This document shows positions 21,616 through 26,659 of a DNA stretch of 52,795 nucleotides, piece by piece (position 1 is the first letter of the stretch; each line of letters begins with the position of its first letter). Origin of the DNA: Candidatus Kapaibacterium sp. (GTDB lineage: Bacteria > Bacteroidota > Ignavibacteria > Kapaibacteriales > WFXC01); NCBI GenBank assembly GCA_015490805.1, contig WFXC01000024.1, positions 1 through 52,795 of the forward strand, written 5' to 3'. Made by a program: the position numbers and the translations under genes. The notes beneath the pieces are model-generated. The model did no database searches, had not been told where the DNA came from, and was given only the letters and a program-made list of their open reading frames with translations.

Positions 21616-23598
21616 TCAGGGTGAAGGAAGAATCAGCAACGCTCCCCGCTGCAATTGTGGCAGAACAATAGCAGTATCGATCCGCTTTCCGTGGAACTCC
21701 AAGCGATTATGAGCAATAGCATACTGAACCACAGAATCGCAGTGCCACACAGAATCCCGCACCCTGCGCAGCGGGATACGCCAGGAATCGATGGAATCCA
21801 CCGCTTGCCAGAAAACTTCGGAGGGAAAAACAAACGTTGGTACCAGAACAGTATCCACGGAGGCAACCGGCACAAAGCGCAGATGTGCCATTGCGATTGG
21901 ACCACCCGCATAAACCGTTGTGGAATCCGAAAGAAGCGACAGATAACGCGCCAGTCCGAGATCCAGGCGGAATGGCTGCAAGGGTCGCCGATCCTGCAGT
22001 AAAAGCCACTGCTGCTGACTATTATGGACGACGATCATCTGGTCCCTGGCGGCAACGATCGTTACAGCTGGTACCCTCAAGGAAAGAGCAAGCAGGATCC
22101 CTATTGCTATCAATGCCCCAGCCAGGGTTCGGAATGAAGGGAAGAACAACAATGCAGTGAAAACAAGCACAGCGCCAACAGCGATTTGAAAGGCTGTATC
22201 ACCCTCAATGGCCACTGGCAACCGGCTGATTCCTGCCAAAAGCGAATGGGACAGAGAAAGGAGCATCGACGCAGTGGCACTATAGAGATGCGCAAGGCTG
22301 AGAGAAAGAACAGACATCCCCAGGGCACAAAGAGCAAAAATGATAGCAAGTGACAAAAGCGGCAGCGTGAAAACATTGGCAATCGGCGCAATCCACGAAA
22401 ATTGATGAAAGTAGTATGCAAGCACTGGAGCAGTAGCAAAGGATGCTGCCAGCGACACTGCCAGCGGGACTGCTATCCTGCGTCCAGATGCCGGAAACCA
22501 GCGCCATTGGCGCAATCGATCTAAAAACACTGGATATAGCAGGGCAATGCCGAAGACAGCCGCAAAAGAGAGCTGGAAACTCACACGGAGTAATTCAGCA
22601 GGTTCTGCTAACGCGAGCACGATGGCAGCGAACGCTACTACATTAAGCAAGGATGCCGGGCGCTCCAGATACAGCAGCCACACAAACAAACTGGCCATCA
22701 ACGCTGCTCGCACCGTTGATGGCTGTGCTCCGGTAACAGCCGTAAACATTCCCAGCGCAACAGTGAAAAGAACCGGGAACCACCAGGAACCTCGCAGAAA
22801 GCTCAATAGTGCAAAAAGAACAACGGCAATAATTCCAACGTGAAAACCACTGACAGCAAAAACATGGGCCACCCCGGTGGTCTGGTACAGCCGCCGCTGC
22901 GCATAGGGCAGCCACGACTTATCACCAGTGAGCAGTGCCACTACTACTGGGGCAGTAGCAGTATCGAAGAGCCGAAATATCCGCTGCTGTATCGCACGAC
23001 GCCACTGCCACACAATCGGCTGCTGCTCAGCCACAGCAGAAACCCGGTTCCCCTCCGCTTCTGCATACCAGTGGAAACGATAGGCTCGGGCATAGTGAAT
23101 CTCATCAAAATCTGTAAAGAGCTGAGGTGGTCGGGGCGGGCGGAAGAACCCCGATCCGTATAGCTTTGCACCCGGTGCAATGGTACCAGTAATCGAGTCA
23201 ACTTTCCAGATAGTCACCAATACACTACCGGAAACTGGTTTGCCCCCTTGTGGGAATAACTGTCCATCAACGATGCATCGAAGCTGCTGCGTACTGGCTC
23301 TGAGGATTGTCCGAACAGTTCCTTTGATCGTTGCTGGCACTGACGGATACCATCCAGTCATTGGCGACACAGGTGGCAACTGCAAAGCGACAGCACAGCC
23401 GCAGCTCAGCGCACTACACCAGAAAGCGAGACCATAGTGATGTCGCCAGAAGCTCAACGCAGCACTAACAATGCCAATTCCAAGAAAGATCCAAATCCAC
23501 AACAGGGGGACCAGTCCAGCAACAATGAGACCAACAAGAAACCCCAGCAAGAAACGAAACGCTGGAAGACTACCGGGCTGTATCCGGTGACGTTGCAT
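21616..23598 (-). CDS. ComEC/Rec2 family DNA-uptake channel protein without a beta-lactamase domain
   Basis: ComEC forms the inner-membrane channel for transforming DNA. The protein has N-terminal helices, a DUF4131-like OB region (residues ~85-200), then the competence domain with VVALLTGDKSWLP, TGVAHVFAVSGFHVGIIAVV and GAQPSTVRAALMAS. About ten membrane segments are visible. The C-terminal ~170 residues contain no HxHxDH motif, so the metallo-beta-lactamase-like nuclease domain is absent, which is common in Bacteroidota ComEC. ATG 23598 overlaps the end of the upstream antiporter gene by 29 nt; a TTG start 12 codons earlier is also open. No Shine-Dalgarno site is clear, so coupling to the upstream gene is likely. 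Confidence 0.93.
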   Translation of the reverse strand: MQRHRIQPGSLPAFRFLLGFLVGLIVAGLVPLLWIWIFLGIGIVSAALSFWRHHYGLAFWCSALSCGCAVALQLPPVSPMTGWYPSVPATIKGTVRTILRASTQQLRCIVDGQLFPQGGKPVSGSVLVTIWKVDSITGTIAPGAKLYGSGFFRPPRPPQLFTDFDEIHYARAYRFHWYAEAEGNRVSAVAEQQPIVWQWRRAIQQRIFRLFDTATAPVVVALLTGDKSWLPYAQRRLYQTTGVAHVFAVSGFHVGIIAVVLFALLSFLRGSWWFPVLFTVALGMFTAVTGAQPSTVRAALMASLFVWLLYLERPASLLNVVAFAAIVLALAEPAELLRVSFQLSFAAVFGIALLYPVFLDRLRQWRWFPASGRRIAVPLAVSLAASFATAPVLAYYFHQFSWIAPIANVFTLPLLSLAIIFALCALGMSVLSLSLAHLYSATASMLLSLSHSLLAGISRLPVAIEGDTAFQIAVGAVLVFTALLFFPSFRTLAGALIAIGILLALSLRVPAVTIVAARDQMIVVHNSQQQWLLLQDRRPLQPFRLDLGLARYLSLLSDSTTVYAGGPIAMAHLRFVPVASVDTVLVPTFVFPSEVFWQAVDSIDSWRIPLRRVRDSVWHCDSVVQYAIAHNRLEFHGKRIDTAIVLPQLQRGALLILPSP

Positions 23599-26500
23599 TG
23601 CCGCGAACGTTAAACTGTGGTGATTCTTCAGCAACTGAAAGCATTGCTTCGTAGTGATCCGTCGATCCAGTTACGAAGGTCCATTGATCCGGACTGAGAT
23701 AATGGGCAAGCTGTTGGGTTAATTGTTCCCGAATGCGCTCTGGATCTTCCAATCCTGCTGGCAAATAGAGTGTCAGGTGGAGCGAACGATAAAACCGCAA
23801 AACTTCCACCAATCGAGTATTCTGCATAGGATTGCGAAACTCGGTAATTTGTGGCTCTGCACTGGTATAGTAATCCGGGATCCAGCGCAAAATCACGTTA
23901 TAAACGGGCACCTGTAACGATTGAGCAATTAGAGATTTCACCAATGCTGCTGTTTCTTCCGATAGTGGCTGATGCCGCAAGTACACAACTTCCAGGACTG
24001 TCTGCCGCGTTGCCGGAATAAATCGAGGACCGATTTCCAGAATCTGAATTCCTGAAGCTGTTGGAATAGCTGCCACAGCCGCCTCTAAATCACTGAGCAG
24101 GTAATTTAACCGTTCAGGGAAACTCTCCAATTTCGATTCGCCAAGAGATAATGTTTCCGGTGCTGCTCCAATGCTGCCCGGACTCTGAATCAAATGCAAC
24201 TCTACAGGCATACCCAACGCCATCTCGACGGTTCGCTCAAATTCTGCAATTTCCTTTTGAGTAAAAAACTGCGACGTAGCAATCCGAATGCGAGCAATCA
24301 CTCTGCCTCCTTGCAGCTCATACTCCACCGCCAGCACACTGGAACGCTCAGGCTGCTCAAAAAACGAACTCGCCGTTTCATTCAGCACCTTCGATACTTT
24401 GTAGCGGAGCGTAATTTCATCGACGGTCCGCTGCAACGGAATTGTCAAAATCAATGCAATCACCATCAACACAAAGAGTCGAGCACGCACTGTCCCTGTT
24501 GCTCCTAACCACCGGGCAATCCGCGACTCTACAAACAACTTCCGAAGCCAGCGACTACCCAGCTCTTCCTGCTTCCACTCTGCAATATATTCTGAAGCAA
24601 CGTGATGGGTTACGCCCAGAAGAAGCAGGATCAAAGAAGATCCCAGCAGCAGCCCAGTAAGATTGGTGGTAAAAAAGAGGAAACTGCCGGTAATGGCGCG
24701 GAGTAACTGCGACATCTCGCCGGCTGACCCCAGGCTGAAGCCCAGGGTAATCACAGGCACAAAAACCAGGTATGCAGTGAGCGGAGCGATCAACATCTGT
24801 TCAGTCGATCGCCCGCGCAAAATGACCAGTGCAAGAAACACTCCTGCCGCCAATGCCAGCGCAAAGTCCAGCAAGGTAGGATTGATTACCTGATTTAAGA
24901 GAGCAGGTACACCAATAAATGGCAGCACCAGACTTACAACCAAGCTCAAGAAAAATGCCAGCAGAATCGTAGCAATAAATTTGGTTAATGATTTCAAAAA
25001 CAGATAGACATCACCTGTCGTCAACGAAAAGCTCAACGTATTCATCAACGGAGCAATAGGTGAAAAAAATAATCCAATGGTGACAACGATGGAAGAATCC
25101 AACATTAAGCCAAGTGTGGTGGTCAGTGTAGTCGCCAGCACTTGAAACCAAAACAGTGTATCGCGGAAACGCACTGATTGGATTGCGATATAGTCCAATT
25201 CCTTAAACCGGAACCAACTGATTCCAAACCACTGCATCAGAAGTTCGGAAAGTGTCGTGGGATGTGCCTTTTCCTGCTGCTCCAGAGCTGGAAAGATGCT
25301 GGGTTCTTCCCGATCCTCAACGGTTGTGTGGACCGCCTCACCGGTTTCAGGTATTTCCCCAGATTGCGGCGACTCAGCAGTAACCAGAGATGTTGCGGTG
25401 GCATCAGTTTGCTGGGGAGATTCTACAGATTCAGCAGGGAAGCGTAGCTCGACAAATGCTACCAGTCCACTCATAATAAAGCTGGTGAGCACGATCGTAC
25501 CAAGAGCATAGAGGATAAAATTTTCCGTCCCCTCAATTCCCAGGGAGATAGGGATAAACGCCATCACCGCTGTTGCCAGTCCCCGGGGAACCATTGCAAC
25601 TGTGAGCCAACGCTCCCGAGCACTGAAGTGAGGACGGAGTTTAAACAAAAATTGGGCACCCAAAAACCGTCCCAGCAGCAGGAGCGCGGTCAGTCCAACA
25701 ATCACCAGCACCGCTTCCAAAGAGAAGCGTTTAAAATCAATTAAAAGCCCCAGGAATACAAAAAAGAACGTACGTACAAGAAAAGAGATTTCCACTGTGA
25801 TATTATGCACAAACTGATCGAGTGCGTACTTTGTCGCATCAATTTTCACTCCTAAAAACCGCCGAATTTTCCCGCTGACCTGGCGTACAATGCCCTCAAC
25901 ATTTGCCAGAATAACACCAAAAAACAAAATTCCGACAGCGCCGTTACCGCCGCTATGCTCAAAAGCAACATAGAGCAGAAAAAGGAATCCCAGTGTCAAC
26001 ATATAGGACACTGCCTCACCTCGGAGAGTTGAAATAAACCGTGCCCACAGCACTCCGGCTAAACCAGCAATCAGAATGGCAATCAGGAAAGACCCCACGA
26101 CACTTTGCATAATATTCCAGAAACTGGCTGCCTGGGCTTGGTGAATCTGAATTGTGAGCAAAACAGAGACGATAATCAGCGCATCCGCCAACGCTGGTTC
26201 AATACTGAGCATTGTCCGCAAATTACTGGAGATCCGCAACTGGGAGACTACCGGCAAAATAATTGCGGGACTGGTTCCCCCCAGCATCCCTGCTAAAATC
26301 AGGGCGGCAACCAGGGGGAATTCCAAAATAAAAAAAGCAAAAAGGAACACCAGAATGTAAGAACACATAAAAGTTGCAATTGTCAACAGCAAAGTTGCTC
26401 CGGCTTCTTCGATCACTTTGTGAATCTCTAAATCCAATCCCCCTTCGAACAGAATAATCAACAATGCCAGCGTGCCGAAATAGGGAGCAATATCCAGCAA

Positions 26501-26659
26501 AGGATCCGTTGGCACAATCTGGAAGATGGGTCCCAATAACAACCCCAGTCCGATCAACAGGAAGACTGAAGGAATCTTAAACAACCGAAACACCAGATTC
26601 CCGATAAAACCGGCAACAATAATGCCACCAAGCAGAAGCAGAAACTGATCAACATTCAT
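23570..26659 (-). CDS. Cation/proton antiporter fused to a DUF389 membrane domain
   Basis: This is a 1029-residue, three-part membrane protein. Residues ~1-405 form a CPA-type Na+(K+)/H+ antiporter (FEGGLDLEIHKVIEEAG, MLGGTSPAIILPVVSQLRI, IEPALADALIIV and VPRGLATAVMAFIPISL). Residues ~405-480 are an acidic, Thr/Pro/Glu-rich linker. Residues ~490-690 match DUF389 (LDSSIVVTIGLFFSPIAPLM, TTGDVYLFLKSL, DFALALAAGVFLALVILRG). After one more helix (~728-745), a ~285-residue soluble tail follows. Both halves are known separately; I do not recall the fusion as common. The role is probably ion homeostasis, with the linker and tail as possible sensors (inference). The start MNVDQFLLLLGG fits the family's first helix. 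Confidence 0.88.
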   Translation of the reverse strand: MNVDQFLLLLGGIIVAGFIGNLVFRLFKIPSVFLLIGLGLLLGPIFQIVPTDPLLDIAPYFGTLALLIILFEGGLDLEIHKVIEEAGATLLLTIATFMCSYILVFLFAFFILEFPLVAALILAGMLGGTSPAIILPVVSQLRISSNLRTMLSIEPALADALIIVSVLLTIQIHQAQAASFWNIMQSVVGSFLIAILIAGLAGVLWARFISTLRGEAVSYMLTLGFLFLLYVAFEHSGGNGAVGILFFGVILANVEGIVRQVSGKIRRFLGVKIDATKYALDQFVHNITVEISFLVRTFFFVFLGLLIDFKRFSLEAVLVIVGLTALLLLGRFLGAQFLFKLRPHFSARERWLTVAMVPRGLATAVMAFIPISLGIEGTENFILYALGTIVLTSFIMSGLVAFVELRFPAESVESPQQTDATATSLVTAESPQSGEIPETGEAVHTTVEDREEPSIFPALEQQEKAHPTTLSELLMQWFGISWFRFKELDYIAIQSVRFRDTLFWFQVLATTLTTTLGLMLDSSIVVTIGLFFSPIAPLMNTLSFSLTTGDVYLFLKSLTKFIATILLAFFLSLVVSLVLPFIGVPALLNQVINPTLLDFALALAAGVFLALVILRGRSTEQMLIAPLTAYLVFVPVITLGFSLGSAGEMSQLLRAITGSFLFFTTNLTGLLLGSSLILLLLGVTHHVASEYIAEWKQEELGSRWLRKLFVESRIARWLGATGTVRARLFVLMVIALILTIPLQRTVDEITLRYKVSKVLNETASSFFEQPERSSVLAVEYELQGGRVIARIRIATSQFFTQKEIAEFERTVEMALGMPVELHLIQSPGSIGAAPETLSLGESKLESFPERLNYLLSDLEAAVAAIPTASGIQILEIGPRFIPATRQTVLEVVYLRHQPLSEETAALVKSLIAQSLQVPVYNVILRWIPDYYTSAEPQITEFRNPMQNTRLVEVLRFYRSLHLTLYLPAGLEDPERIREQLTQQLAHYLSPDQWTFVTGSTDHYEAMLSVAEESPQFNVRGNATSPDTAR

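Follow-up and report, generated by a model that had tools for sequence, protein, structure and literature searches.

Fusion of a cation/proton antiporter to DUF389 in a class of Bacteroidota suggests a possible role for DUF389 in ion homeostasis

What might DUF389, a widespread membrane protein family of unsettled function, contribute to a protein that begins as a cation/proton antiporter? The question is raised by one gene in the window, i.e., the whole stretch of 52,795 nucleotides analysed here, which derives from a Bacteroidota metagenome-assembled genome (MAG) placed near records named Candidatus Kapaibacterium. A preliminary description had read this gene as a single frame of 1029 residues and had proposed that its DUF389 domain works with or regulates ion transport. 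The frame is present at positions 23570–26659, on the minus strand (the strand had not been given), and is divided as follows, with the basis of each assignment in parentheses:

23570–26659, minus strand: whole gene, CPA antiporter–DUF389 fusion of 1029 aa (reading frame, Pfam, full-length homologues)
25451–26659, minus strand: antiporter half, residues 1–403, with PF00999 at 18–401 (Pfam; solved relatives NhaP 4czb and 4cza)
25142–25450, minus strand: acidic linker, residues 404–506, poorly conserved and probably cytoplasmic (alignment of fusions, charge count)
24590–25141, minus strand: DUF389 membrane core, residues 507–690, with PF04087 at 535–672 (Pfam, AlphaFold, fold match)
24425–24589, minus strand: basic loop and seventh transmembrane (TM) helix, residues 691–745, common to standalone DUF389 proteins (alignment, AlphaFold)
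23573–24424, minus strand: soluble tail, residues 746–1029, probably extracytoplasmic, with strand-strand-helix-strand units (AlphaFold, profile comparison)

The complete antiporter claimed earlier corresponds to a nearly full PF00999 match (profile positions 5–370 of 375, 121.6 bits against a cut-off of 26.2, E = 4.7e-35), and the claimed DUF389 domain is likewise recovered above its cut-off by PF04087 (profile positions 3–137 of 137, 36.9 bits against 23.9, E = 4.4e-9). The linker is acidic, as had been described, with 18 D/E against 7 K/R at residues 397–509. Six TM helices are predicted in the DUF389 core, of which TM2 is broken at S-P-I-A-P. The description of a long soluble tail holds in part: about 285 residues do remain C-terminal to the last hydrophobic segment (residues 727–742), but the C-terminal region is for the most part not an addition to DUF389, since the seventh helix and at least the first soluble domain belong to the family itself. 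The first strand-strand-helix-strand unit of the tail is common to standalone DUF389 proteins, and model confidence is low past about residue 827.

The fusion is known from about a dozen genomes in four family-level groups, all within one Bacteroidota class. Two other MAGs carry full-length copies at 94–95% identity, and a profile search found more fusions in the window's order, in groups f60 (G421) and f62 (G562, G479 and a partial copy in G571). A class-level search added full-length fusions of about 1080–1130 aa in the family-level group f52, which share 44–47% identity with the window fusion over the antiporter and 27–29% over the DUF389 half. Both Pfam domains exceed their cut-offs in the window fusion and in the three full-length fusions of its order (L190, L191 and L192), as does DUF389 in the f52 fusions. 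DUF389 itself was present in 118 of the 296 genomes (40%) of a phylum-wide sample and was fused only in the window's own genome, where it occurs once; the concern that the fusion might be a common architecture is thus not borne out within the sampled phylum. A scan of viral contigs did not find the fusion. Two other long frames were rejected as fusions: an 896-aa open frame in G231, where the DUF389 protein is standalone and the N-terminal stretch is something other than an antiporter, and a 1217-aa frame in G592, which has DUF389 at its N-terminus and no antiporter match.

In separate trees of the two halves, antiporter and DUF389, the fusions fall together, with the same split between f52 and the window's order in each, and in the DUF389 tree they form a clade with support of 100/99. 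The simplest reading of both trees suggests one old fusion event, since inherited as a unit. Genomes of the group f57 (70–96% complete) carry the same antiporter gene, likewise upstream of aconitase, but not fused to DUF389, and they gave no DUF389 match anywhere. In G354 (L072) and G342 (L073) the antiporter occupies the syntenic position before aconitase, and the genome has no DUF389 match. The 3' end of the fusion gene is overlapped by a same-strand gene at 21616–23634 (minus strand), named from its sequence as a ComEC/Rec2-like membrane protein; this arrangement is kept in the sister genomes (L003, L071) and absent in the f60 and f62 fusions.

The antiporter half displays the motifs E154-P-A-L-A-D159, with an Asp at the catalytic position, R296 and P358-R-G. 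An acidic residue (D or E) occupies the catalytic position in all aligned fusions, and the residue preceding the catalytic Asp is Ala in the window fusion and Gly in f52. In the fusions of G335 and G296 (L065, L069), Glu replaces the catalytic-position Asp (ESALGE). Among solved proteins the NhaP antiporters 4czb and 4cza are closest, sharing with the fusion the nearly full PF00999 profile, the catalytic-position Asp, an Arg in a late TM helix and P-R-G. However, the Asn of the N-D motif of NhaP-type CPA1 antiporters is replaced by Ala or Gly: the window fusion reads A-D, and the other fusions read either A-D or G-D/E. The solved NhaP chains are about 425 aa long and devoid of DUF389. The nearest standalone antiporter relatives also lack the Asn, and the standalone antiporters adjacent to DUF389 genes have the classical N-D. 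The best NCBIfam match of this half is PRK05326, a K+/H+ antiporter family of the CvrA/YcgO type, from which the fusion differs in scoring far below the cut-off (76.1 bits against 355). The antiporter half is predicted to be a cation/H+ exchanger, with either Na+ or K+ as the possible cation.

The DUF389 half was compared with the standalone members of its family, which in Bacteroidota are about 430–480 aa long and consist of a six-helix core, a charged loop, a seventh helix and then outer domains. A profile of four f52 fusion C-halves with one standalone relative aligned to six standalone DUF389 proteins with a probability of 99.8%; the 316 aligned columns include the seventh helix and extend across the first outer domain, and the window fusion aligns with the f52 fusions through the same region. 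When the profile was restricted to the window's own near-identical sequences, it aligned to standalone DUF389 in the core only, because it is too thin. Conservation is weak and modelling poor beyond the first outer domain. The window fusion can be aligned to DUF389/TIGR00341/TIGR00271 proteins from the core to the first outer domain, seventh helix included, but differs from them in being tethered to an antiporter and in a divergent core that departs from the canonical DUF389 motifs and scores below both NCBIfam cut-offs (TIGR00271, 36.9 bits against 146.5; TIGR00341, 21.3 against 94.75). DUF389 was also found in archaeal and cyanobacterial control genomes and on proteobacterial and Bacillota plasmids.

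Sequence searches matched DUF389 to no solved structure. Structure prediction of the DUF389 half had been proposed as a check, and two AlphaFold models were computed from alignments that leave out the loci obtained by genome search, are therefore shallow (7 rows) and share some rows: one of the window C-half (pLDDT 54.5 on average and mostly 58–82 in the core blocks) and one of a canonical DUF389 core (pLDDT 67.1 on average, pTM 0.68). The best 50 structural matches listed for the canonical core were all aquaporins or FNT channels (Z 9.9–11.2; Z was 8 or higher for 148 chains but lay between 5 and 8 for only 16), and the core of the window model likewise matched FNT channels (best Z 11.8, with 201 residues superposed at 4.5 Å) and aquaporins first, values to be read against the Z of 13 that helical bundles can reach by chance. 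Foldseek TM-scores of the models were below 0.5. With the long window model Foldseek ranked zinc transporters (YiiP/ZnT) at the top, which we read as a mixed-domain match because of the very poor rmsd. An internal repeat is suggested within the core, whose halves TM1–3 and TM4–6 align in register (P = 7e-4), with a score of 23.9 against a best of 20.0 in 40 unrelated membrane windows and 17.6 for a reversed half, although one of 60 block shuffles reached 23.6. In its predicted fold DUF389 would resemble FNT channels and aquaporins, with six helices, a broken TM2 and two putative repeats, but it differs from them in lacking NPA motifs and in adding a seventh helix and an outer domain; a Pfam scan of the fusion and hhalign comparisons gave no sequence-profile link to FNT (PF01226) or MIP (PF00230). 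Both models are of moderate confidence, and we take the aquaporin/FNT-like fold of the core as a lead rather than proof. FNT-like frames of 680–709 aa were weak and under the family cut-off, and similarities of the outer domain to ribosomal S3/KH-like units and to the MamM CTD were too generic to be used.

Evidence independent of the fusion comes from gene neighbourhoods. In 100 Bacteroidota regions reaching about 5 kb to each side of DUF389 matches, in 95 of which the DUF389 profile found the gene, standalone DUF389 genes had CPA (PF00999) antiporter neighbours in 8 loci and NhaA neighbours in 6. Against a background of 257 PF00999 and 50 NhaA matches in 80 of these genomes, chance would give 0.83 and 0.16 such neighbours (Poisson P = 3e-6 and 2e-8, respectively, from counts not weighted for genome relatedness). 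Tight same-strand adjacency was observed three times for CPA (0.08 expected) and five times for NhaA (0.015 expected). The CPA cases span six family-level groups and the NhaA cases four, and in G080 genes for NhaA, DUF389 and a CPA antiporter stand in a row. The partnership cannot be obligatory, since more than 85% of the sampled loci lack an antiporter over some 5 kb. A 45-residue NhaA remnant in G174 (C4:220911–221048), less than 1 kb from a DUF389 gene (219733–220137), is possibly what is left of a decayed NhaA–DUF389 pair.

Pairing extends to plasmids of other phyla. An antiporter lies near DUF389 in 7 of 19 annotated plasmid regions and in none of the other 12, numbers that do not represent a rate since the regions were hand-picked. 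The arrangements include NhaA–DUF389–antiporter (Hymenobacter swuensis), nhaA–DUF389 (Sphingomonas insulae), DUF389–antiporter (Enterococcus raffinosus) and antiporter–MscS–DUF389 (Moraxella osloensis), with further cases in Hymenobacter DG25B, Spirosoma and Polymorphobacter; together they cover Bacteroidota, Alpha- and Gammaproteobacteria and Bacillota. On an IMG/VR contig (L182, 2699–5344), NhaA is followed by DUF389 after a gap of about 118 bp; a second contig of the viral collection (L183) encodes a DUF389 protein 91% identical to that of the first. These genes may be cargo of a phage or may belong to a host and flank a provirus. DUF389 on plasmids of Acinetobacter, L. sakei, E. faecium and Lactococcus (L175, L176, L177, L245) often lies near transposases or recombinases, with no antiporter nearby. 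Plasmid regions of Novosphingobium and Sphingobium have no antiporter, but MscS, SLC13, SulP or ClC beside DUF389. In Sphingomonadales (L188, L239, L240, L241) the recurrent neighbours of DUF389 are genes for SLC13, SulP, ClC, MscS or K+ channels, a grouping that may represent an ion-homeostasis island.

Co-occurrence of antiporter and DUF389 genes is by itself no proof of interaction. The adjacency to NhaA and CPA genes in Bacteroidota and the plasmid pairs in other phyla nevertheless lend support to the original proposal of a DUF389 function alongside, or in control of, ion transport. More specifically, DUF389 may act in pH and Na+ homeostasis as a channel-like membrane protein that partners H+-coupled cation antiporters, a reading we consider about evenly balanced. 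Its bolder form is more tentative: DUF389 may be an unrecognised family of the aquaporin/FNT fold, a gated channel that contributes, alongside Na+/H+ antiporters, to homeostasis of sodium and of pH under alkaline conditions, with exchanger and channel here forming one polypeptide. The C-terminus of CPA antiporters faces inward. In the fusion, a cation/H+ antiporter would be permanently joined, one to one, to its DUF389 partner, with the cytoplasmic antiporter C-terminus leading via the linker into the DUF389 N-terminus. The charge pattern and the general topology of CPA antiporters would place the linker in the cytoplasm and both ends of the DUF389 core inside, the seventh helix crossing to the outer domain. 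DUF389 would then be a six-helix aquaporin/FNT-like module extended by a seventh helix that bears an extracytoplasmic domain; together with H+-coupled antiporters it may serve cytoplasmic pH and Na+/K+ homeostasis. Most likely it would do so as a channel-like or permeation-controlling subunit, with the outer domain sensing or gating; such a subunit could supply a compensating flux (weak acid, anion or water) or tune antiporter activity.

One alternative is that DUF389 conducts nothing and is a purely structural or regulatory partner, acting in assembly, membrane stabilisation or envelope sensing by the outer domain; it would tune the antiporter much as cytosolic TrkA_C-type domains do in other CPA antiporters. 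Such antiporters carry regulatory domains at the C-terminus, and DUF389 occupies the place of the cytosolic regulatory domains of the PRK05326 family. This position, together with the conserved membrane-anchored outer domain and the pairing with two antiporter families, is in keeping with a regulatory function. However, the core helices are conserved and proline-broken, the best structural matches are channels, and DUF389 usually occurs away from any antiporter, so that we regard this alternative as possible but rather unlikely.

A second alternative places DUF389 in a general osmotic and ionic stress cassette of antiporters, MscS, ClC, SLC13, SulP and Usp, with neither physical nor direct functional coupling to the antiporter and with the fusion as a lineage accident. 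MscS (5 loci) and UspA (4 loci) do recur beside DUF389 in the sampled Bacteroidota loci, as ClC, SLC13 and SulP do on plasmids, yet tight adjacency involves two different Na+/H+ antiporter families, and a fusion retained in four family-level groups, with agreeing trees for its halves, has lasted longer than an accident would be expected to; we consider this explanation improbable. An error of assembly or reading frame that merged two neighbouring genes is a practically negligible explanation, as the same frame recurs in independent MAGs and in distant lineages.

In the open-access literature, with subscription journals mostly outside the search, we found no paper on DUF389 function, antiporter pairing or fold; true mentions give the name only, without a function, and some apparent mentions concern DUF3892 or DUF3893. 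The architecture may already be catalogued elsewhere. For a widespread family of unsettled function, the fusion and the operons propose a concrete role that can be tested, partnership with H+-coupled cation antiporters, and the predicted fold points to a physical activity of DUF389 that can be assayed.
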